Source: Sorangium aterium
GTDB lineage: Bacteria; Myxococcota_A; Polyangia; Polyangiales; Polyangiaceae
NCBI RefSeq assembly: GCF_028368935.1
Contig: NZ_JAQNDK010000001.1
Location: 3,038,001 to 3,102,000 of the forward strand
Direction of reading: 5' to 3'
Length of the DNA: 64,000 nt
Made by a program: the position numbers and the translations under genes. How positions within the stretch are numbered: the stretch's first letter is position 1; the number at the start of each line of letters is the position of its first letter. Below, piece by piece: positions 3,962 through 51,571 of this stretch. The notes beneath the pieces are model-generated. The model ran no database searches, had not been told where the DNA came from, and saw only the letters and a list, made by a program, of their open reading frames with translations.

Positions 3962-6361
3962 ATGCAAGATGCGTTCACCGTCAGCGCCAGCGCGCTCCCC
4001 GCCGCCACGCGGGTCATTGGCTTTCGAGGGGCAGAGGGGCTGTCGAAGCCGTACGTCTTCGAGATCTATCTCGTGATGACGAACTACGTGGGCCAGGATC
4101 TCGACCTCGCCGACGTTGTGGGTACGAAGGCGACACTCCGCCTCTCCCCGTCGGACGGCGGGGCTCCCTTCCTCGTGAACGGCATCTTCGCGACGATGGA
4201 GCTCATCCACGCGTTCGGCGAACGCTCCGTCTTCCGCGCCGTGCTCGTGCCGCAGCTCTGGAAGCTCACCATCTCCCTGCATAGCCGGATCTTCACCGAC
4301 CAGACGGAGCCCGACATCATCAAGACGGTGCTCTCGGGCGCCGGGGTCTCGGACTACGAGCTCAGGCTGATCGGCAGCTACAAGCCGCAGGAGCACGTGT
4401 GCCAGTACCGCGAGAGCGACTTCGACTTCATCTCGCGGTGGATGGAGCGCGAGGGGCTCTATTATTACTTCGAGCAAGGGGACGGCGGGGAGACGCTCAT
4501 CATCACCGACGACAAGGGCGTCCACGCCCCGCTCGGCCAGAAGGCGGTCCGGTATATCCCGCAGTTCAGCGAGCACAGGGTCAAGGGAGAGGTGCTCTGG
4601 ACCTTCACGTGCCGGCACACGTCGATGCCGTCCAGGGTCCGCATGAGCGACTATGATTACAACAATCCCGCGATCGAGATCTCCGGCAGGGCGCCCGTCG
4701 CGGCGAACGGGCTCGGCGAGATCAGCGTCCACGGCGCGCGTTTCTTCACGCCGGCCGAGGGCAGCCGCCTCGCGGCCGTGAAGGCGCAGGAGCTGCTCGC
4801 GGGCCAGGTCGTCTACCACGGCACCGGGGCGGCCTTCACCATGCGCCCCGGGTACACGTTCGAGCTCGAAGAGCATCCGAGGCCGGCGCTCAATGCGGTC
4901 TATCTGGCCACCGAGGTCGAGCACTGGGGCAACCAGACGGGCTGGGCGCCCGAGCTGATGCAGATCATCGGGCTCACCTGGGACGATGTGTACCGGATGG
5001 AGGTCAAGGCCGTCTCCTCGACCGTCCAGTACCGGGCGCCGCAACGGACGCCGTGGCCTCGTATCTACGGGACCGAGCACGCCCTCGTCGACGGCCCGGC
5101 GGACAGCGAGTACGCCCAGATCGACCAGCACGGTCGCTACGCGGTCAAGCTGAGCTTCGATGAGAGCGACCTCCGGGGCGGCAAGGCCTCGACCTGGGTT
5201 CGCATGCTCCAGCCGCACGGCGGCGGCACCGAGGGGTTCCATTTCCCCCTGCGCAAGGGCACCGAGGTGATGTGCACCTTCCTCGGCGGGGATCCGGACC
5301 GCCCCGTCATCGCCGGCGTCGCCCCCAACGCGCTCACGCCGAGCCCCGTCACCTCCGCCAACAGGACGAGGAACGTCATCCAGACCGGGGGCAGGAACCG
5401 CATCGAGCTCGAGGACCAGGCGGGCTCGCAGCGCATCACCGTCAGCACGCCGACCGAGAACACGATGCTGCGCATGGGCGCGCCCAACGATAACCACAAT
5501 TTCATCTCCAGGACGGACGGTACCGCCCTGATCAAGACGGGCAAGTCGCTCGAGATCCAGACGGGCACCTGGAGGAAAGACAACGTCGACGATCAGATGG
5601 AGACCGAGGTCGGCGGTTACCTGAAAGAGACCGTCACCGGCGCCGTCACCCTCGAGTACAAGGACATAAAGACCGAGACCGTCACGAAGGCCGTCACGGA
5701 GATTTACAAGGACACGAAGAGCGAGACGGTCACCAAGCCCGTCACGGAAAAATATCTGGACACCCAGACCACCACGGTCACCAACCTGCGCAAGTCCGAG
5801 CACGGCACCGAGGAGACGACCGTCCACGGGAAGGTCACGGAGAAGTACGAGGGCCATCACGAGACGAAGGTGACGACGGGCGGCCGGTACGAGGAGACCA
5901 CCGGCCTTCAGCACGGGAAGTTCAACGACGGCTGGAAGGTCGAGATCCCGGGCGGCAACGTCGAGCACATCGCGACGGGTGACTACGTCATCCAGGCAGA
6001 GCACTTCAGAGCGAAGGGCAAATCCGACTACCGCGAGATTCAGGGCGTCAGGATTCAAAACACGTTCGGCGGCCTGATCAACCTCACCTACGGCTTCGGC
6101 ACCCTGAACGTCGTCGCCCCGCAAAGGACGGAGCTGGTCGTGGGGTTGAAGGTGGATGTCATCGCCGGGCTCAAGGCGGAGGTCATCCTGGGCTGGAACT
6201 ACAAGAATTCAAAAGGCAAGACGGACGTCACCTTGCTCGACATGAAGAACTCGGCCGTCAAGATCGGCACCTCGGGGATAACGCTCAGCAGGACTGCTGC
6301 GGCCAAGGTGACCTCGACGGGGGCTCACGTCTGGCAATCCTTCATTCACATGTTCCACTAG
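3962..6361 (+). CDS. vgrG: Type VI secretion tip protein VgrG
   Basis: This 799-aa spike protein trimerises at the tip of the T6SS tube and carries effectors out of the cell. A clear ribosome site (GGGGAG, 8 nt upstream) supports the start. Residues 1 to about 350 are the gp27/gp44-like hub, with family blocks such as CQYRESDFDFISRWMEREG and LYYYFEQ. Residues about 360-460 form the gp5 OB-fold (SLSFDESD-like KLSFDESDLRGG, then WVRMLQPHGGG and GDPDRPVIAG). After the conserved NRIELEDQAGSQRI block, residues about 540-700 carry a beta-prism region made of repeated ETVTK/VTEKYKDT-type units. The last 100 residues show no toxin domain that I can recognise, so this looks like a cargo-carrying rather than an evolved VgrG. 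It lies between two DUF2169 genes in one forward cassette. Confidence 0.95.
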   Translation: MQDAFTVSASALPAATRVIGFRGAEGLSKPYVFEIYLVMTNYVGQDLDLADVVGTKATLRLSPSDGGAPFLVNGIFATMELIHAFGERSVFRAVLVPQLWKLTISLHSRIFTDQTEPDIIKTVLSGAGVSDYELRLIGSYKPQEHVCQYRESDFDFISRWMEREGLYYYFEQGDGGETLIITDDKGVHAPLGQKAVRYIPQFSEHRVKGEVLWTFTCRHTSMPSRVRMSDYDYNNPAIEISGRAPVAANGLGEISVHGARFFTPAEGSRLAAVKAQELLAGQVVYHGTGAAFTMRPGYTFELEEHPRPALNAVYLATEVEHWGNQTGWAPELMQIIGLTWDDVYRMEVKAVSSTVQYRAPQRTPWPRIYGTEHALVDGPADSEYAQIDQHGRYAVKLSFDESDLRGGKASTWVRMLQPHGGGTEGFHFPLRKGTEVMCTFLGGDPDRPVIAGVAPNALTPSPVTSANRTRNVIQTGGRNRIELEDQAGSQRITVSTPTENTMLRMGAPNDNHNFISRTDGTALIKTGKSLEIQTGTWRKDNVDDQMETEVGGYLKETVTGAVTLEYKDIKTETVTKAVTEIYKDTKSETVTKPVTEKYLDTQTTTVTNLRKSEHGTEETTVHGKVTEKYEGHHETKVTTGGRYEETTGLQHGKFNDGWKVEIPGGNVEHIATGDYVIQAEHFRAKGKSDYREIQGVRIQNTFGGLINLTYGFGTLNVVAPQRTELVVGLKVDVIAGLKAEVILGWNYKNSKGKTDVTLLDMKNSAVKIGTSGITLSRTAAAKVTSTGAHVWQSFIHMFH

Positions 6362-6405
6362 CCGCGGCGCCCAGCAGAAGACCGCGGGAGCCTGCAGCGA
6401 ACCTC

Positions 6406-9069
6406 ATGAAGACCATCAAGCCGAACCGGCTGGGGCTGCTCACCAAGGTGTTCGAGAACGACGGCGAGCCGTACCTCGTCGTCACGCTCCTCGTCTTCTT
6501 CCCGTTCGAGACGCCGAGGCACCTGCTCCATGAGCAGAGCCTCTGGAGGTTCGCCGGCACGGAGCTCGGGAGCGACGCCATCCTCGACGAGTGCATGCCG
6601 AAGCTCCGGGGAGAGCTGCTCGTGAACGGCCGCTGCTTCACCGCGGGCGCCGTGCCGCGCGCCGCGTGCTCGGTGCGGGTCCAGCTCGGGGCGATCGACA
6701 AGACGCTTTACGTCGTCGGAGACCGCCGCTTCGGTCTCCTGGGGATGACCGATCCGGAGCCGTTCACCGAGATGCCGATCACATGGCAGAACGCCTTCGG
6801 CGGCGAGGGCTACGCGCCGAACCCGATCGGCAAAGGCTTCGCGCCGGTGCGCGGCGAGAACGGCTCGGTGCATCCGTTGCCCAACATCGAGGATCCGCGC
6901 CGCCTCGTCCGGTCGCCCGGCGACCGGCCCCCGCCCGCCGGCTTCGGAGGTTACGATCCGACCTGGCCACAGCGCTTCTCCAAGGTCGGGACGTACGATG
7001 AAGCGTGGCTCAAGGAGCGCTTCCCCGAGCTCGCCAAAGACCTCGACTGGAGCTTCTTCAACACCACGCCGCCGGACCAGCAGATCGAGGGGTATTTCCG
7101 GGGCGACGAGGCGTTCGTCATCGAGAACATGCACCCCGGGAAGCCCCGGATCGAAGGGGCGCTGCCGGGGGTGGCGGCGCGGTGCTTCATCAACCAGAAG
7201 ACCGGCGAGGGGGAATCCTTCCGGGAGATCGCGACCCGCCTCGACACGGTCCGGCTCTTCCCCCACCACGAGCGCGGGATCCTCGTCTATCGCGGGGTGC
7301 TCAAGATCCGTGAAGACGATGCGGCCGACGTGCTCCACATCGTCGCGGGCTGCGAGGCGATGGGCGAGCCCAGGCCGGTCGAGCATTACCGGACCGTCAT
7401 GGCCCAGCGGCTGGACAAGGAGAAAGGGCACCTCTTCCTCCTGCGTGACGCGGATCTGATGCCGCCTCCGCAGCCGGACGCGGGGCCGCTGCCGGACGAC
7501 CCTCAGGCCGAGATGACGAGGCTGCTCCGATCGGAAGGGCTCTTGCAGAAGCGCGCCCGCGCGAAGGCGGAGCGGCAGATCGAGGAGATCAAGGCGAAGA
7601 TCCGGGCGCAGGGCCTCGATCCGGAGCCGCTCGTCGCCCCGCTGCCGCCGGACGACGACGCGATCGAGCCCAGCCTGGACGAGCTGCCGGCATACGTCGA
7701 GCGGGCGATGACCGAGGCCGAGAAGGTCAAGGCGGACGCGGAGGCGCGCCGCGCGGCCGAGGAGCAGAGGGCGCGCGCCGAGTGCGCGAAGCACGGATTC
7801 GATTATGACGCGATCATGGGCGAACGGCAGAAGGAAGCCGGCGGCCCGCCCCGGTTCTCGGCCAAGAAGGAGCTCGAGCGGCTCGAGGACGTCGCCCAGA
7901 TGGCGCGGAACGGCGGAGTCGAATGGCCGGAGCTCGAGGCGCAGCTCGGTGACCCGGAGCTTGCGGCGCGCCTCTTCGAGGTGGAAGAGCAGATGCGCTC
8001 TGCCTACCGGAAGCTCGCTCACCACTACCCGGCCGCCTCCCGGCTGGGAGGCGAGGAGGCCACTCGCGTGCGGGAAGAGGTGATTGCCGGGCACCGGACC
8101 GGGGAGAGCTTCGCGGGGCGCGACCTCACGGGCGCCGATCTCTCGCACCTCGACCTGTCGGGCATCGATCTCGAGGGCGCGCTGCTCGAGGCCGCGGTCC
8201 TCACGGGCACCCGGCTGTGCGGCGCGAACCTCGCCAACGCGGTCCTGGCAAAGGCCAATCTCCTCGGCGCAGATCTCACCGGGGCGAACCTCGCCGGCGC
8301 GAACCTCGGCGGAGCGAACCTTTGCGACGTGAAGATGCGCGGCGGGCTCGACCTCACCGGCGCCGTGCTGGCCAAGGCCAACCTGTCGGGCGCCGACCTG
8401 ACCGGCGCGCGCCTGTCGGACGCCGACCTGTCCCAGGCGACCTTCGACGGGGCCGACCTCAGCCGCGTGACCGCGCGCAACCTCGTCCTCATCAACGCCG
8501 ACCTCTCCGGCGCCCAGCTCTCCGGCGCAGACCTCGAGAAGTGCACCTTCATCGAGGTCAACGTGGAGGGCGTCGACTTTCGCGGCGCGAACCTCCGCGC
8601 GTCGGTGTTCATCACCGGCAAGGGCGACGGCGCCGTCTTCCGCGGCGCCAAGCTCGACAACATCCGCCTCATCGCAGGCTCGTCGTTCACGGGCGCCGAC
8701 TTCCGCGGCGCTTCGCTCGAGCAGGCCAATCTGAGGGGCACCTGCCTCCGAGGGAGCGACTTCACGGAGGCCAACCTGCGGAGCTCCGATCTCAGCGAGT
8801 GCGACCTCACGGGCGCTCGCCTGGATCGCGCCGTCGCGGTGGGCGCCATGCTCACGCGGGCAGACCTCTCGGGCGCCTCGCTGTCCGGAATCGATCTGAT
8901 GGAGGCCGTGCTGCAGAAGGCGAAGGTCGACGACGCGAGCTTCGAGGGCGCCAACCTGTTCCGCGTCGACGCCGCGAAGATGCGCGGAAACGCCGCGACG
9001 AGCCTGAAGGGGGCCAATGTGAAGTACGTGCGCTTCGTCGCGCCGCCGGAGAACCATGGACAGAAATGA
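6406..9069 (+). CDS. DUF2169 and pentapeptide-repeat fusion protein
   Basis: This 887-aa protein has three parts. Residues about 15-330 are a DUF2169 domain (WQNAFGGEGYAPNPIGKG, then FFNTTPPDQQIEGYF and GILVYRG). Residues about 340-560 are charged and helical and probably a coiled coil. Residues about 565-885 are pentapeptide repeats with dozens of A(D/N)LxG units, which fold as a square right-handed beta-helix. This fusion architecture is known from T6SS-associated cassettes where DUF2169 acts as adaptor. The start follows the vgrG stop by 44 nt, and the 3' end overlaps the next gene by 14 nt, implying coupled translation. The repeat part might present or mimic cargo at the spike; that is inference. 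Confidence 0.9.
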   Translation: MKTIKPNRLGLLTKVFENDGEPYLVVTLLVFFPFETPRHLLHEQSLWRFAGTELGSDAILDECMPKLRGELLVNGRCFTAGAVPRAACSVRVQLGAIDKTLYVVGDRRFGLLGMTDPEPFTEMPITWQNAFGGEGYAPNPIGKGFAPVRGENGSVHPLPNIEDPRRLVRSPGDRPPPAGFGGYDPTWPQRFSKVGTYDEAWLKERFPELAKDLDWSFFNTTPPDQQIEGYFRGDEAFVIENMHPGKPRIEGALPGVAARCFINQKTGEGESFREIATRLDTVRLFPHHERGILVYRGVLKIREDDAADVLHIVAGCEAMGEPRPVEHYRTVMAQRLDKEKGHLFLLRDADLMPPPQPDAGPLPDDPQAEMTRLLRSEGLLQKRARAKAERQIEEIKAKIRAQGLDPEPLVAPLPPDDDAIEPSLDELPAYVERAMTEAEKVKADAEARRAAEEQRARAECAKHGFDYDAIMGERQKEAGGPPRFSAKKELERLEDVAQMARNGGVEWPELEAQLGDPELAARLFEVEEQMRSAYRKLAHHYPAASRLGGEEATRVREEVIAGHRTGESFAGRDLTGADLSHLDLSGIDLEGALLEAAVLTGTRLCGANLANAVLAKANLLGADLTGANLAGANLGGANLCDVKMRGGLDLTGAVLAKANLSGADLTGARLSDADLSQATFDGADLSRVTARNLVLINADLSGAQLSGADLEKCTFIEVNVEGVDFRGANLRASVFITGKGDGAVFRGAKLDNIRLIAGSSFTGADFRGASLEQANLRGTCLRGSDFTEANLRSSDLSECDLTGARLDRAVAVGAMLTRADLSGASLSGIDLMEAVLQKAKVDDASFEGANLFRVDAAKMRGNAATSLKGANVKYVRFVAPPENHGQK

Positions 9070-43954: not shown

Positions 43955-44686
43955 TTATTTCGGGGCGCGAAGGGAGAGGGAGACGGTCACGCCTACGGGG
44001 TCGGCGCTGGGGGTGCCGATGGGCTTGTTCTTCAGGAGCTGACGGATGCAGCGCTGCGCGTCGGGGGTGATGCCCCGAGAGTCGAGGATCTCGACCCCCT
44101 CGGCGCGGCCGCGCACCCGGACGAGGAACTGGACCTTGATGCTGCCCGACGCGCCAGAGAGGCCGCCATTGTCGGCAACACACTTCGCCAGGTCGGGGGC
44201 GACCTTTTCTAGACGCTTGGCCACGTTCGGGACGTCGCCGTTCATGAACTCGGGCTCCTTGACCTCCACGAGAGGGGGCGGGGCCGACACGATCGATGCG
44301 TCGGGTACGCCGCCGTCGATGGGGCCGGCATCGCCGGGAACACCGCCGTCGGGAGGGAGGGCGCCGCCGTCAGGCGGCGGGGCGCCGCCGTCGGGAGGGG
44401 GCGGCTCGGGCTGCGGCGACGGGGGGAGCCAGCCGGCATCCGCCTCGCCCGGCTCTAGGCACCGCACGAAGCCACGGTGAGGATCCTCCAGCGCGCCGTG
44501 CGGACACCGCGGAGCGCCGCCGGCGTCAGGCGTCGCCGCCGTGATCCACCCCTGATCCGGCGGCTCCTGCCGCGGCGGCGCGCCGCCCTCGGCGACCGCG
44601 CCGACGCAGGCGCCGACAGCGCCCATCGACAGCGCCACAGAGATCGCCCACTGACCAAGACGCCCACCTGCTGCTCTCCACCGCAT
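43955..44686 (-). CDS. Exported AgmX/TonB-like C-terminal domain protein
   Basis: This 243-aa protein has a signal-like hydrophobic start (MRWRAAGGRLGQWAISVALSMG), a long Pro/Gly/Asp-rich middle with PPPDGG-type repeats (PPPDGGALPPDGGVPGDA), and a compact C-terminal domain of about 100 residues (DVPNVAKRLEKVAPDLAKCV, then QFLVRVRGRAEGVEIL and QRCIRQLLKN). This plan matches the AgmX/PglI and TonB-like C-terminal domain group of myxobacteria. Function unknown; the C-terminal domain could bind an envelope partner. The start is preceded by CTCTCC rather than a clear ribosome site. Confidence 0.7.
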   Translation of the reverse strand: MRWRAAGGRLGQWAISVALSMGAVGACVGAVAEGGAPPRQEPPDQGWITAATPDAGGAPRCPHGALEDPHRGFVRCLEPGEADAGWLPPSPQPEPPPPDGGAPPPDGGALPPDGGVPGDAGPIDGGVPDASIVSAPPPLVEVKEPEFMNGDVPNVAKRLEKVAPDLAKCVADNGGLSGASGSIKVQFLVRVRGRAEGVEILDSRGITPDAQRCIRQLLKNKPIGTPSADPVGVTVSLSLRAPK

Positions 44687-44808: not shown

Positions 44809-46653
44809 TCAGAGGGCGATGTGGGCGAGCGATCCCGCCGAGGCGTCCCAGAGCGCCTGTGCCCGGGACAGGGCGTTGGCATGCGCCTCGGTCCCCGCGG
44901 CAGGCCCTGTCACGGAGATCACGCCGCCCGCGCCGAGCTCGATCCGCTCGATCCCTGCGTCCGGGAGCTCGTCGCGGAGCTCCCTGGTCATCCGCTCGCC
45001 GATGCGCTGGAGCAGGCGCGCGAGCCGCTCGGGCGTGATGTCCCGGAACACGAGCACCTGCGGGAGCGTGAGCTCCGAGACGAGCCGAGCGCGGTCGGAG
45101 AGGCCCTGCTCGCCGAGCCGCCTCTCGACGAGCGCCGCGAAGACGCTCCCGTACGCCCGGTCGACCTGCTCCCGCCGGAACCGCTCGTCGATGGCCGGTC
45201 CGAGCCGCGTCTCCAGCTGCGCAACGCCGTTCAGCCCGTTGGCGAAGCGCCCCTCGTTCTGCGCGAAGTACTCCCCCCGCGCGCGCAGGTCGCTCGCCAG
45301 CGACGCGAGGTGCTCGCCCATCGTCGATAGGGCGCGCAGCACGAGATCGGTGAACTTGAGCTCCTCCCGGATCCAACCCACGTCGGTCACCCGGTCGGCC
45401 ATGAACGGCCAGACGACGAGGTTGTAGTAGTTGTTGAAGTCGAGGAGGTACTTCAACCGATAGAGCTCGAAGGAGCCGAACACCGGATACATGCGCTCAT
45501 AGAGACGGAGCGTGCTGTCGTACTTGAACCGGTAGTACGCGTCGTAGGCCGCGACCCTCTCCTCGAACCCGGCGCGGTCGCCGCGGACGTCGGAGAGGAT
45601 CATCTGCGTGATGAACTCGTTCGCGGTCGCGATGAAATCGGATCCGGGGCTGTAGAAGGGATCGGTGAACGCGCCGGCCTCGCCGGTGACGGCGTAACGG
45701 TCGGTCGAGAAGTACTGCTCGGCGTGGTACGGCAGGTGGGCATAGCTCTGGAAGTCCTCGAGCTCCGCCCCCTCGAGCAGGTCGCGCGCGGCGCGGTGGG
45801 CGCCCAGGAAGCGCTCGAACTCCGCGCGCGTGCGCGGCCCGGGCAGCGCCCCGGCCGGCGCGTTCCCGGCCGGCGTGTTCCCGGCGCCGATCCGGTCCTT
45901 GTCGAACACGACGCCCACGCTCATCAGATCGCCGGCGAGCGGGATGAACCAGATCCAGTACCCGTCGTACATGAAGTGGTTCGTCGACAGGTGGCGCGAC
46001 GTGTACCGCGCGCGCGACCGCCACGCCGCGTCGGTGACCGCATCGAGCCCCGCGACGCCGCGGTAGCGGCCCCACGCGGCCGCCGTGTTGAGCCGCGCCT
46101 CCTTGTGCACCTTCACGCCGAGCTTGCGGAAGAGGACGTGCCGCCGACCGGAGGCGTCGCACACCCAGCGGCAGGCGACCTCGCGCCGCTCACCGCCCTG
46201 CTCGTAGACGACCGTGTGCCGCCCGCGCCCGTCGATCGCGACGTCGACCACCTTGGCGCCGAGCTCGACCTCGGCGCCCGCGGCGCGGTTCATGGTCACG
46301 AGATCGCGCTCCAGCCGCGCGCGCTCGAGCTGGAAGCTCGGGTGGAACGGCATGTGGTCGGAGCCGATCTCGCTCATCCGGGGCAGCGGGAGGTCCTTGC
46401 CCGGAGAGTCGAAGAAGAAGCGGAGCCCGTTCTTGGGGAGCTGGTGCTGGTAGAGGTACGTGCCGAGGTTCAGCCGGCGAACCATGTAGTTCGCCGCGAC
46501 CTCCACCGTGCTCTCGCCGACCTTGTAATCCTCCATCGCCTCGGCGGCCTCGAGCACGAGGACCCCGAGGTCGGGGCACGCGAGGCGGAGCTGCCGCGCG
46601 AGGAAGCCGCCGGCGATGCCGCTGCCGATGATCACGATATCGAACGTGCGCAT
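44809..46653 (-). CDS. Flavin-dependent halogenase-like FAD enzyme (tryptophan-halogenase family)
   Basis: This 614-aa flavoprotein has the FAD-binding Rossmann motif IIGSGIAGG at residues 8-16 and the halogenase-family KVGEST block near residue 44. The signature WxWxIP is present as WIWFIP around residue 230, inside GYWIWFIPLAGDLMSVGVV; this motif is characteristic of flavin-dependent halogenases and blocks monooxygenation. A mid-region YAVTGEAGAFTDPFYSPGSD block also fits the family. No partner flavin reductase is visible nearby. It follows the acyltransferase gene after 11 nt in the same direction, so they are probably co-transcribed. Substrate unknown. Confidence 0.85.
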   Translation of the reverse strand: MRTFDIVIIGSGIAGGFLARQLRLACPDLGVLVLEAAEAMEDYKVGESTVEVAANYMVRRLNLGTYLYQHQLPKNGLRFFFDSPGKDLPLPRMSEIGSDHMPFHPSFQLERARLERDLVTMNRAAGAEVELGAKVVDVAIDGRGRHTVVYEQGGERREVACRWVCDASGRRHVLFRKLGVKVHKEARLNTAAAWGRYRGVAGLDAVTDAAWRSRARYTSRHLSTNHFMYDGYWIWFIPLAGDLMSVGVVFDKDRIGAGNTPAGNAPAGALPGPRTRAEFERFLGAHRAARDLLEGAELEDFQSYAHLPYHAEQYFSTDRYAVTGEAGAFTDPFYSPGSDFIATANEFITQMILSDVRGDRAGFEERVAAYDAYYRFKYDSTLRLYERMYPVFGSFELYRLKYLLDFNNYYNLVVWPFMADRVTDVGWIREELKFTDLVLRALSTMGEHLASLASDLRARGEYFAQNEGRFANGLNGVAQLETRLGPAIDERFRREQVDRAYGSVFAALVERRLGEQGLSDRARLVSELTLPQVLVFRDITPERLARLLQRIGERMTRELRDELPDAGIERIELGAGGVISVTGPAAGTEAHANALSRAQALWDASAGSLAHIAL

Positions 46654-46664
46654 GACGAGAGCCC

Positions 46665-48002
46665 TTATACCGCGGCCCCGACCGGCGGCGCGGGCTCTCC
46701 GAGCAGCTCGGCGCGGAGCGCGCCGGGCATCGCTTCCACCTCGTCCGGGCGGAGCAGCCCGTCGCCGTGGATGATCGACGCCGAGAGGCGACCGCCGAAG
46801 CGGCTGAAGATCACCTGGAAGCCGGGCGGCGCGACGACCGCGGGCAGCGGGTACGCCGAGCGCACAGGGAGCCCCGCGAACCGCTCCACCGTCACAGCGC
46901 CGGGGTTCGAGACGATCAGCGAGGCGAGCTCTCCCTGGAAGGGCTGATCCCCCAGCCAGCGGTAGATCGGGCCGGGGAGCCAGCGGGCCAGATCGAGCGC
47001 GGCGATCATGGCGAGATCGAGCCTGTCGCGCACCACGGCGCGCTGCTGCTCGGCCAGGCGGGCCACCGCGCGCGCGTCGTCGTGGAGCTCGTCACGGCCG
47101 AGCGAGAGCAGAGCCATCGTGAGGTGATTGCCGAAGAGCCGCCGCGCGCCCCCCTTGGGGTCGAGCGAGAGGGGCAGCGGGATCACGTGGTGCGGCGGGG
47201 CGAAGCCGCGGGCCGCGAGCGCCCGGTCGGCGAGCCGCGTCGCCGCGATCAGCATGAGGCTCGTCTCGGCGAGCCGCGCTCGCTGGCGCGCCCGGAGATC
47301 GAAGGCGCGCGTCTCCTCCGCCGAGAGCGTGAGCCGGAGGACGCGAGAGGCCGAGGGCCGCACCCCAGGACAGGCGCGCGCGAGCGACAGGATGGGCGCG
47401 CGGCCGAGCGACAGCACGTGGGCCTTGTACGCGCGCGCCAGCGCGACCCGCTCGTCGCGGTCCATGGCGGCCAGCAGGCGCTCCGGCGCGTCGTGCCGCT
47501 CCTGCCGCGGCGGCGGGTCGTCGGGCGCGTCGCCGCTCCCGGAGCCCAGCCAGGCGACGAGCCGATCCGCGCCCCTGCCATCCGTCAGCGCATGGTGGTG
47601 GCGAAGGACGACCGTGTCGCCGTCGCCCACCTCGCGCACGACGTCGAGCGCCCACGGCCGCTCGGCAGAGGTCCGGTCCGCGAGCAGCGCCTCGATGCGC
47701 GCCGCGCGCTCGCGCTCGCCCTCCACCTCGTGGAGGCGCAGCCCTGGGGCGCGCCGGTGGTGATCGACGACCCAGCGGGGCCGCCCCGCCCGCCCGAGCA
47801 CGCTGTTGTCCAGCCGGAACCGGAGCTCGGGGAGCGCCCGGGTCGCGCGCTCGAGCCGCACCGCGAGCCGCGCCAGGTCGAGGCGACCGTCGAGCTCGAG
47901 GACGAACAGGCAGTGGTTGCCCGCCTGGCCGCGCGATCGCATGGCGCGATCGTTCATGAGGTGGAAGAAGTCGATCCCCCCGAGCAGAACGGGCGATGTC
48001 AT
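46665..48002 (-). CDS. WS/DGAT-condensation-superfamily acyltransferase
   Basis: This 445-aa protein has the HHxxxDG catalytic motif as RHHHALTDGRG at about residues 134-144, as in wax-ester/diacylglycerol acyltransferases and nonribosomal condensation domains. The C-terminal ND/SN-like segment SLIVSNPGAVTVERFAGLPV fits the WS/DGAT side of the family. It probably transfers an acyl group to an alcohol or amine. It is the first gene of a two-gene operon with the halogenase (11-nt gap). The ATG at 48002 begins at the fold. It faces a divergent LysR gene with a palindromic operator between them. Confidence 0.85.
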   Translation of the reverse strand: MTSPVLLGGIDFFHLMNDRAMRSRGQAGNHCLFVLELDGRLDLARLAVRLERATRALPELRFRLDNSVLGRAGRPRWVVDHHRRAPGLRLHEVEGERERAARIEALLADRTSAERPWALDVVREVGDGDTVVLRHHHALTDGRGADRLVAWLGSGSGDAPDDPPPRQERHDAPERLLAAMDRDERVALARAYKAHVLSLGRAPILSLARACPGVRPSASRVLRLTLSAEETRAFDLRARQRARLAETSLMLIAATRLADRALAARGFAPPHHVIPLPLSLDPKGGARRLFGNHLTMALLSLGRDELHDDARAVARLAEQQRAVVRDRLDLAMIAALDLARWLPGPIYRWLGDQPFQGELASLIVSNPGAVTVERFAGLPVRSAYPLPAVVAPPGFQVIFSRFGGRLSASIIHGDGLLRPDEVEAMPGALRAELLGEPAPPVGAAV

Positions 48003-48136
48003 GGTCTCCGCGAGGCACCGCCGGTCAGGGACGAGCCGCGGGCGACCCTAGCAGCCACGCGGGCCGCACGACAGCGCCCACAGGCGCAGGATCACGCATC
48101 GTCGCCACGTCCGCCGCGCGCCCGCGCAAGATAACG

Positions 48137-48161
48137 AAAGTATCCACGCTGTGGATACTTT
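48137..48161. promoter_or_regulatory. Palindromic operator between the acyltransferase and lysR genes
   Basis: A perfect 11-bp inverted repeat, AAAGTATCCAC (48137-48147) and GTGGATACTTT (48151-48161), is separated by GCT. It contains an exact T-N11-A LysR-type box (TCCACGCTGTGGA). It lies 20 bp before the LysR start and about 135 bp from the acyltransferase start, the usual place for a LysR-type regulator to control both itself and its target genes. Confidence 0.75.
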
Positions 48162-48181
48162 GTTCGTCTTATATTCCTGGA

Positions 48182-49120
48182 GTGAATCTTTCGGCGATCG
48201 ACGTCAACCTGGTGATCGCGCTCGACGCCTTGCTGCAGGAGCGCAGCGTGACGCTCGCGGCCCGCCGGGTGGGCCTCAGCCAGCCCGCCATGAGCCACGC
48301 GCTGACGCGGCTGCGTGAGCTCTTCTCCGACCCGCTGCTCGTCCGGGTCGGCCGGCAGATGGCGCTCACCTCGCGCGCCGAGGCGATCACGCCGCAGGTC
48401 ACCGCGATCGTCCACGATCTCGCGGGCCTCTTCGGCGAGACGGCGCAGGCCTTCGACCCGGCGACGAGCGATCGCACCTTCCGGATCGCCGCCACGGAGT
48501 ACGTGGAGCTCGTCCTCATGCCGCGGCTCAACGCGGCGCTCGCGCAGGGCGGACCGAGGCTCGCGCTCCACCTGCTCCCGCTCGACGGCCGCGCCGTCGA
48601 CGCGCTCCGGAGCGGCGAGATCGATCTCGCGATCGGCGTCTTCCCGCAGGAGAGCCTCCCCTCCGACCTGCGCCGCGCGCCCCTCTTCGACGATCGCTTC
48701 GCGGGGCTCGCGCGCATGAGCCACCCCACGGCGCGCGGGCACGTCGATCTCCAGACCTACGCGGCCCTCCCGCACGTCGTCGTCCCCAGGGGCGGCGCCC
48801 ACGACGGGGTCGCGGACGATCTCATCGCGGCGCGCGGGATCGCGCGCCACGAGGCCATGACGGTGCCGCACGTGTTCCTCGTGCCGCACGCCCTCACCGC
48901 GTCGGATCTCGTGGCCACCGTGGCCACGCGCCTCGGTAGGGCGTTCTCCAGCCTGGTGCCGCTCCGCTCCTTCGACCTGCCGTTCGAGCTGCCGCCCATC
49001 GAGATCGCGATGGCGTGGAACAGCCGGACCGAGGGCGATCCCGCGCGGGCGTGGCTGCGCGGCGTCGTGACGGACACCGCCCCGACCCCGCGCGAGGCGG
49101 CCCGGCGCAAGCGCGTCTGA
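48182..49120 (+). CDS. LysR family transcriptional regulator
   Basis: This 312-aa protein has the N-terminal winged helix of the LysR family (LDALLQERSVTLAARRVGLS, then QPAMSHALTRLRELF) and a co-inducer-binding substrate domain starting at about residue 90 (RTFRIAATEYVELVLMPRL, then IDLAIGVFP and DDRFAGLARMSHP). The start is a GTG at 48182; GGA overlaps it closely and no stronger site is seen. It is divergent from the acyltransferase-halogenase operon and its own start lies 20 bp from a perfect palindrome, so autoregulation plus control of that operon is likely. The inducer is unknown. Confidence 0.9.
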   Translation: MNLSAIDVNLVIALDALLQERSVTLAARRVGLSQPAMSHALTRLRELFSDPLLVRVGRQMALTSRAEAITPQVTAIVHDLAGLFGETAQAFDPATSDRTFRIAATEYVELVLMPRLNAALAQGGPRLALHLLPLDGRAVDALRSGEIDLAIGVFPQESLPSDLRRAPLFDDRFAGLARMSHPTARGHVDLQTYAALPHVVVPRGGAHDGVADDLIAARGIARHEAMTVPHVFLVPHALTASDLVATVATRLGRAFSSLVPLRSFDLPFELPPIEIAMAWNSRTEGDPARAWLRGVVTDTAPTPREAARRKRV

Positions 49121-49158: not shown

Positions 49159-51483
49159 CTAGCGGCCGAGCGCCTCGGCGCGGTTCACGATGCGCGGCGT
49201 GAGGAAGATGACGAGCTCGTTCCGCGTGTCGCTCGCGCGGCGCCGCTGGAAGAGGAGGCCGAGGACCGGGATGTCCCCGAAGAACGGCACCTGATCGAGG
49301 TTCCGGCCGGTGTTGCGGGTGAAGATCCCGCCGATCACCGCCGTGTGCCCGTCCATGATCAGGAGGTCGGTCTCCGCCTCGCGCTTCAGGATGGTGGGGT
49401 CGCCGCGGGCCGACGTCTGGTTGAAGTCGGGCTCGTCGCGGTTGATCTTCACGTGCATCGCGACGCTGCCGTCCGACGTGACGTGCGGCTTGACGAGCAG
49501 CTGGAGCTTGGCCTCCTGGAAGGTCGTCTGCACGCCCTGGGCGCTGATCTGCGAGAACGGGATCAGCGTCCCCTGGCTGATCCGCGCCTCCCGGTTGTCG
49601 AGCGTGAGGATGCGCGGGCTAGAGACGACCCGCAGCATGCCGCTCGCCTCGGCCGCCGAGAGGCGGACGCCGAGGTTGACGGTGTTGTTGATCGAGCCGA
49701 GCGTGAAGCCGAGCGCGCCGCCAGATCCGGCGCCGACGACGGCCGGCAGGTTCACCGCGAAGTTCGGGTTCGAGACCTGGCTCGCGAACGGCGAGAGGCC
49801 GCCGGTCGGGCTGTTCGAGTCGGTCGCGCCGCCGGCGATGCCGATCGCCGAGGGGAAGACGAGCCCCGTCGGGTTGCCGGTCGCCGCGCTGAACGTCCCG
49901 TCGCCGCCCCACTGGATGCCGATGTCGCGCACGTAGCGGCTCGTCGCCTCCACCACGCGCGCCTCGATCAGCACCTGCGGCGTCTGCGTGTCGAGCGAGC
50001 GGACCAGCTCCTCGATCTGGTTCAGGTTCCCCGCGACGTCGCGCGCGATGAGCACGTTGGTCCGCTCGTCGACCGCCAGCGAGCCGCGCGGCGAGAGCAT
50101 GTCCTTCGAGCGGTCCTGGAGGTCCTTGGCGTCCGCGTAGTTGATCGGGATGAGCCGCGTCTCGAGCGGGGCGAGCTGGAGCTCGCTCTTGCGCCGCGCG
50201 ATCGCGAGCTCCCGCTCCTTGTTGAGATCGGCGATCGGGGCGACGCGGATCATGTTGCCCTGCCGGACGACGCCGAGGCCCTTGGCCTGGAGCACCGTCT
50301 CGAGCGCCTGGTCCCACGGGACGTTGCGCATCCGGATGGTGACCGTGCCGGTCACGTTGTCGGCGGTCACGATGTTGACCCGCCCCACGTCGGAGATCAG
50401 CCGGAGGACGTTGTGGATGTCCGCGTCCTTCAGGTCGAGGTCGATGCGCCGCCCCGTGAACCGCCGCTGCTGCCCGGCGATCGCGGGCATGAAGGCGCCG
50501 GCCTGGTCGGGCTCGACGAGCGACTCCTGGCTGCTCGCCGCGCCCTCGAACGAGGTCTCCACCTTCGGCGCCGCGTCGTCGAGGAGCGCCTCGCGCGCCA
50601 CCGTGCGGGTCCGCCTCGCCGCGCCGCCGTCGGCGCCGATCCCCGAGAGCGCCGTGGGCAGCGCGCCCTTCGCGACGCTCAGCACGAGCGCGTTGCCCTC
50701 GCGCGCGACAACGCCCGAGGCGCCCTCGGCCTGCTCGACCTCGACGACGACCCTGGAGCCGTCGCTGTTGCGCCGGAACGTCGAGATGGCCCGCACCGGG
50801 CCGCCGAAGGCGCCGACGTCGAGCTTGCGCTGGAGGGCGTCGGGGAGCCGGACGCCGCTGAGCTCGATGACGCGGCGCCCCCCCTTGCCCGTCGACTCGC
50901 GGTAGCTCGGGATCGACGAGAGCTCGATGACGACCCGATCGAGCGTCGCCTGGTGCTCGAAGCGCACGTCGGTGATCGCCGCCGGCTCGCGCGCCGGCGC
51001 CGCCGCCGCGGGGCCGGCCGGGGCCCGCGCCGCCATCGGCGCCGTCGCGTCGGCGGCGGCGAGCTCGATCACGAGCGCGCCCTGCTCGGCGCGGATCCGG
51101 TAGGCAGCCGGACGCGCGAGCTGCACGAGCACCCGCGTCGTCCGCTGGGTCGCCTTGCCGAACCCCTGCGTCATCACCCCGGCCACGATCGCGTTGCCGC
51201 TCGTGATCGCGCCGGACGCCCCGCCATCCTCCGCGCCCTCGAGGTCGACGAGGAGCCGCTTGCCGCCGTCCGCGACCCGCGCCGAGAAGCGCGGCTCGCC
51301 GCTCGTCGCGACCACGATCTCGGCCTTGCCCTCGTCCGGCGCCGTGAGCCTCACGTCGCTGACCTTGATCGGGGCGGCGGCGTCTGCGTCTCCCGCAGGA
51401 GCGCCGAGGATCAACATCACCCCGAGTGCCGCAGCACGGCGAAGCGCGCCCCGCCTCGGGCGATAGTCTCGATTGCTCTTCAT
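49159..51483 (-). CDS. pilQ: Type IV pilus secretin PilQ
   Basis: This 774-aa outer-membrane channel passes the type IV pilus. Seen in order: a signal peptide, two AMIN-like domains (about residues 40-130 and 155-250), an STN/secretin-N region (IDLDLKDADIHNVLRLISDVG, then TIRMRNVPWDQALETVLQ), and a secretin domain with VVSSPRILTLDNREARISQGT, the GGIFTRNTGRNLDQVPFFG block and the closing ELVIFLTPRIV. It is the last gene of pilMNOPQ. A ribosome site (GGGAG) precedes the ATG at 51483; 88 bp separate it from pilP, so it may also have its own promoter. Confidence 0.97.
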   Translation of the reverse strand: MKSNRDYRPRRGALRRAAALGVMLILGAPAGDADAAAPIKVSDVRLTAPDEGKAEIVVATSGEPRFSARVADGGKRLLVDLEGAEDGGASGAITSGNAIVAGVMTQGFGKATQRTTRVLVQLARPAAYRIRAEQGALVIELAAADATAPMAARAPAGPAAAAPAREPAAITDVRFEHQATLDRVVIELSSIPSYRESTGKGGRRVIELSGVRLPDALQRKLDVGAFGGPVRAISTFRRNSDGSRVVVEVEQAEGASGVVAREGNALVLSVAKGALPTALSGIGADGGAARRTRTVAREALLDDAAPKVETSFEGAASSQESLVEPDQAGAFMPAIAGQQRRFTGRRIDLDLKDADIHNVLRLISDVGRVNIVTADNVTGTVTIRMRNVPWDQALETVLQAKGLGVVRQGNMIRVAPIADLNKERELAIARRKSELQLAPLETRLIPINYADAKDLQDRSKDMLSPRGSLAVDERTNVLIARDVAGNLNQIEELVRSLDTQTPQVLIEARVVEATSRYVRDIGIQWGGDGTFSAATGNPTGLVFPSAIGIAGGATDSNSPTGGLSPFASQVSNPNFAVNLPAVVGAGSGGALGFTLGSINNTVNLGVRLSAAEASGMLRVVSSPRILTLDNREARISQGTLIPFSQISAQGVQTTFQEAKLQLLVKPHVTSDGSVAMHVKINRDEPDFNQTSARGDPTILKREAETDLLIMDGHTAVIGGIFTRNTGRNLDQVPFFGDIPVLGLLFQRRRASDTRNELVIFLTPRIVNRAEALGR

Positions 51484-51571
51484 TGCACTCCCGCTTCGCG
51501 GTGACGCGAGATCTGCGTCACGCTGCCGGGAGGCTACTTCGGGTGCCCGGCGCGGGCCCAATTCGTGGCGG

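Follow-up and report, generated by a model that had tools for sequence, protein, structure and literature searches.

The halogenase-like flavoprotein and the acyltransferase encoded side by side in Sorangium, a soil myxobacterium, may form a two-gene tailoring module of this lineage. The module would pair a halogenase with an ester- or amide-forming acyltransferase, and the aromatic or lipid skeleton would be made elsewhere. We prefer this reading and hold it tentatively. The partnership of the two enzymes is plausible and not obligatory. The window, meaning the whole stretch of 64,000 nucleotides that was analyzed, belongs to a genome of 13.5 Mb that is assembled into 7 contigs. The features at and around the locus are as follows.

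43955 to 44686, minus strand: small exported protein, TonB/AgmX-like in appearance (from sequence; no NCBIfam match).
44809 to 46653, minus strand: FAD-dependent halogenase-like enzyme, 614 amino acids (ORF, Pfam, NCBIfam, PDB, motifs, and structural model).
46665 to 48002, minus strand: stand-alone acyltransferase of the condensation/WS-DGAT/PapA superfamily, 445 amino acids (ORF, profile, and HHALTDG motif).
48137 to 48161, no strand: candidate LysR site, a perfect 11-bp dyad AAAGTATCCAC-GCT-GTGGATACTTT that holds T-N11-A (from sequence).
48182 to 49120, plus strand: LysR-family regulator, 312 amino acids, GTG start (PF00126, PF03466, and conservation among strains).
49159 to 51561, minus strand: pilQ-like secretin, the final gene of a pilMNOPQ run (from sequence and synteny, with no family search).

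The acyltransferase gene is upstream of the halogenase gene, and the gap between them (positions 46654 to 46664) is exactly 11 nt, as the initial annotation had stated. The LysR gene is divergent from the acyltransferase gene, also as stated there, and convergent with pilQ. The TonB/AgmX-like gene is downstream of the halogenase gene and is kept in Sorangium and at locus L038. Among named genomes, strains of Sorangium cellulosum are the nearest, and their flavoprotein is 88 to 92% identical. In other Sorangium strains the halogenase-acyltransferase-LysR trio is located between pilQ and prfC. Its frames are intact in the three strains tested, so the ORFs are no chance reading. No flavin reductase gene was seen beside the pair. 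No ketosynthase is linked to the locus, and the closest ketosynthase gene of this genome lies about 263 kb away, measured from the start of the window, which bears out the earlier statement that no synthase is linked here.

The flavoprotein is likely a flavin-dependent halogenase and an ordinary member of a known family, judging by its sequence. It matches the Pfam Trp_halogenase model above the cut-off (E = 6.7e-11). Its top NCBIfam match is CmlS, the chloramphenicol halogenase, at a score far under the equivalog cut-off, as would be expected of a different enzyme. Its nearest solved structures by sequence are CmlS, FasV (8zop), CndH, and Bmp2, and nearly all PDB matches are halogenases. It contains the GxGxxG FAD-binding motif as GSGIAG (residues 10 to 15, glycine positions invariant), KVGES at residues 44 to 48, and FxxPxxSxG as FTDPFYSPG (residues 329 to 337). 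The WIWFIP noted in the initial annotation is at residues 233 to 238 and fits WxWxIP, with W233, W235, I237, and P238 invariant; the halogenase-like call holds. Lys74 is invariant and aligns with the lysine at chain position 91 of CmlS (K71), which we take to be the catalytic lysine. Close relatives retain these motifs and Lys74, and so does nearly all of the wider family. WxWxIP and a catalytic lysine are marks of halogenation, and WxWxIP has been proposed as a feature that blocks hydroxylation (PMC10696468).

The AlphaFold model of the flavoprotein has a pLDDT of 74.5. It is mostly confident for residues 1 to 470, with low patches at residues 204 to 218 and 257 to 269. Its best structural matches are Bmp2, FasV, PltA, PltM, and CtcP (Z 29 to 32). 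Halogenases that act on phenols or pyrroles rank first, and the tryptophan halogenase PrnA matches less well. The protein shares with single-subunit FAD-dependent halogenases of the CmlS/PltA/PltM/Bmp2/CndH type the fold, the FAD site, WxWxIP, FxxPxxSxG, and the lysine at the K71 position, at about 20% identity. Unlike them, it has a C-terminal part, starting near residue 475, that is barely covered by any match, and its gene has no linked synthase or carrier protein. Weak model matches also raised protein maturation of the LodB/GoxB type. This was dropped because the locus showed no gene for a partner oxidase.

The acyltransferase, too, is an ordinary member of a known family; it can safely be assigned by sequence to the condensation superfamily and is no proven WS/DGAT. 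It carries the motif HHALTDG, which includes His137 and Asp141. Both residues are invariant in 14 homologues, down to 26% identity; the motif's first His and its Gly are variable. A profile of the 14 homologues matches NRPS condensation domains in the PDB (E = 3e-7). A PDB search with the single sequence gave chance matches only, and a structure prediction from five close sequences had a pLDDT of 35. The score was 22.8 bits against Pfam WS_DGAT (PF03007; cut-off, 23.6) and 49.6 against TIGR02946 (cut-off, 309.95). The earlier label of WS/DGAT/condensation-like is therefore right at the superfamily level only. The enzyme has the HxxxD catalytic motif and the profile matches in common with acyltransferases of the WS/DGAT, PapA, and NRPS condensation types. 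It differs from them in falling below the Pfam and NCBIfam WS/DGAT cut-offs and in its link to pilQ.

In the preferred reading, the flavoprotein is most likely a two-component FAD-dependent halogenase that would receive FADH2 from an unlinked reductase. Its flavin hydroperoxide would oxidize chloride or bromide to HOX. The HOX would reach Lys74 through a tunnel, for halogenation of an electron-rich aromatic ring. The acyltransferase most likely uses His137 to transfer an acyl group from a thioester donor onto a hydroxyl or amine. The two genes are probably cotranscribed from a promoter before the acyltransferase gene, and their enzymes may share a single aromatic or lipid product. The gene order, the conservation, the catalytic residues, and the fold of the flavoprotein were observed; halogenation, a common substrate, cotranscription, and regulation are inferences from them. 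The pair probably combines an acyltransferase that had long stood behind pilQ with a halogenase of dispersed occurrence, and the clade of this halogenase has relatives that are often part of aryl-polyene-type clusters. No product or activity was found reported for any close relative of either enzyme.

Both genes are under purifying selection in Sorangium. Pairwise dN/dS (NG86) between Sorangium strains was 0.17 to 0.21 for the flavoprotein, 0.22 to 0.29 for the acyltransferase, 0.30 to 0.36 for pilQ, and 0.64 to 0.93 for LysR; the method is simple and the genes are GC rich, so only the contrast among these values is usable.

The LysR start was placed at the GTG at 48182 because similarity among strains begins there; an alternative ORF start at 47996 overlaps the acyltransferase gene. 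The protein matches PF00126 and PF03466. The perfect dyad lies about 20 bp before the start in the window, and four other Sorangium relatives have a degenerate form only. Through this intergenic region, LysR probably regulates the pair as well as its own gene. The LysR switch proposed in the initial annotation is plausible from this anatomy of a divergent gene and a dyad. Its claim to be a conserved inducer switch is weakened by a near-neutral effector domain. Among the window gene (48182 to 49120) and those at L031, L033, and L034, dN/dS was 0.87 to 1.17 in the effector part and 0.03 to 0.39 in the conserved DNA-binding part. Another point against the switch is that no LysR gene was seen between pilQ and the pair at L038, from a lineage that has the pair. 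In genome G292 a LysR gene (53% identical) is also beside pilQ. It is 3.5 kb from the pair, and the genes between include a protein kinase-like one.

Across 108 Polyangiaceae genomes, the halogenase is found in 14, the acyltransferase in 14, and both in 9. The two genes are adjacent in three genera, namely, Sorangium (11 nt apart), that of G292 (43 nt), and that of G196/L038 (about 20 to 60 nt). At L038 (positions 4716 to 6525) the halogenase orthologue spans two overlapping frames, either by assembly error or as a broken gene. Five genomes (G295, G312, G351, G352, and G353) have a halogenase (54 to 63% identity) and no acyltransferase match anywhere, and in all of these except G312 it was seen in unrelated surroundings. 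Five others (G297, G300, G301, G322, and G362) have the acyltransferase and no halogenase match. The acyltransferase is directly behind pilQ in five other genera (genomes G120, G196, G297, G300, G301, and G362), mostly with no halogenase, so its tie to pilQ is wider than its tie to the halogenase. The LysR gene separates pilQ from the acyltransferase gene in Sorangium. The loci at which a condensation-superfamily acyltransferase directly follows pilMNOPQ are L038, L116, L173, L174, L175, and L176, in several Polyangiaceae genera. The pair is a lineage-specific pairing and no fixed pathway unit.

We also searched a sample of 282 genomes of the phylum for relatives of the flavoprotein (E up to 1e-30) and of the acyltransferase (E up to 1e-10). 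The flavoprotein has a relative in 55 genomes and the acyltransferase in 22. A halogenase relative is present in 21 of those 22 genomes against 4.3 expected, a count that ignores shared ancestry. In many Myxococcota, distant flavoprotein relatives (about 35 to 47% identity) adjoin genes for ketosynthase, ACP, ammonia lyase, AMP ligase, dehydratase, and lipid acyltransferase. Ketosynthases, ACP, dehydratase, and lipid acyltransferases were called by Pfam, and the AMP ligase and a reductase were read from sequence. This gene set appears to be of the aryl-polyene type. Distant acyltransferase homologues occur in these clusters too, where a second halogenase type, marked by WSWRIP, is often their neighbor. 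At L105, L106, L108, L109, L113, L114, and L115, the distant acyltransferases have a second flavoprotein close by, of the WSWRIP/WGWRIP type, and an AMP ligase and further FAD oxidoreductases are in the vicinity. Elsewhere in the Myxococcota, a small cluster recurs (L039, L041, L046, L053, L055, and L059) in which two halogenase paralogues are head to head. Beside them are genes for ACP, an ApeP-like dehydratase, a FabF-type ketosynthase, and a PlsC-type acyltransferase.

The initial annotation had proposed a dedicated small pathway and had named homologues that are not co-located as the case against it. The neighborhoods give that case in part. The orthologues occur apart in ten Polyangiaceae genomes, which weakens the proposal, and adjacency in three genera and the phylum-wide co-occurrence favor it. 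The same ten genomes, the lack of a linked ketosynthase, and the failure to see a flavin reductase gene beside the pair count against the module that we prefer. It is quite possible that the two genes are neighbors by history. The acyltransferase would then belong to the pilMNOPQ locus with a substrate of its own, and an independent halogenase would have landed behind it later. Acyltransferases behind pilQ with no halogenase and lone halogenases in unrelated surroundings both argue for this; the tight spacing and the co-occurrence across the phylum argue against it. It is more doubtful that the flavoprotein acts as a monooxygenase, hydroxylating or oxidizing its substrate, with halogenating activity lost or never present. 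Hydroxylases of the PHBH type share its fold at a slightly lower Z (about 27 versus 29 to 32), so fold alone cannot decide between halogenation and hydroxylation, and the FAD_binding_3, GGR, and MenJ models match as well. Against this, Lys74, WxWxIP, and FxxPxxSxG are all retained, and halogenases rank first among the sequence matches.

The clusters of other Myxococcota suggest a further origin, in which the locus would be a remnant of an aryl-polyene pathway with its remaining genes elsewhere in the Sorangium genome. Such a split pathway is unlikely, and we give it little weight. Xanthomonadin-like aryl-polyene clusters with halogenase genes are known from Azoarcus (arcA; PMC3949708) and Xanthomonas (PMC3691225), and the clusters around the distant halogenase and acyltransferase homologues resemble them by cluster type. 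Unlike them, the Sorangium locus has no polyene genes. Ketoacyl-synt_2 (PF13723), the ketosynthase type that is diagnostic of such clusters, was absent from Sorangium (G000, G282, G283, and G284) and from G196 and G120, with a positive control in Bacteroides. The window's genome has a single ammonia lyase, which scores above the HutH cut-off. A search for ApeP-like proteins gave no match, though its control was also silent. Without a linked ketosynthase or PF13723, and with only a HutH ammonia lyase, the skeleton has to be supplied from elsewhere. A quick tree places the Sorangium flavoprotein in a clade of eleven entries nested among the others (SH-aLRT 95), and none of the eleven sits in an aryl-polyene-type cluster.

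The tailoring module that we prefer contains known enzyme kinds in an arrangement for which we found no description in the open-access literature. The initial annotation had recognized no described system with this pair, and we likewise found none in that literature. We found no open-access paper that couples "flavin-dependent halogenase" to "wax ester synthase," and by title and abstract the open-access papers found on Sorangium halogenases and chlorinated products do not concern the locus. The synteny of pilQ and the acyltransferase across Polyangiaceae is a separate matter, still unexplained, and the best lead. As a long shot, the pilQ-linked acyltransferase might modify a cell-surface or pilus-associated molecule. 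Sorangium would have added the halogenase and a fast-evolving LysR to make a halogenated, acylated surface product on a signal. Should both enzymes serve one product, Sorangium would possess a compact step of halogenation and acylation that lies outside any synthase cluster. Such a step is of the kind that synthase-centered cluster-finding programs would tend to miss.
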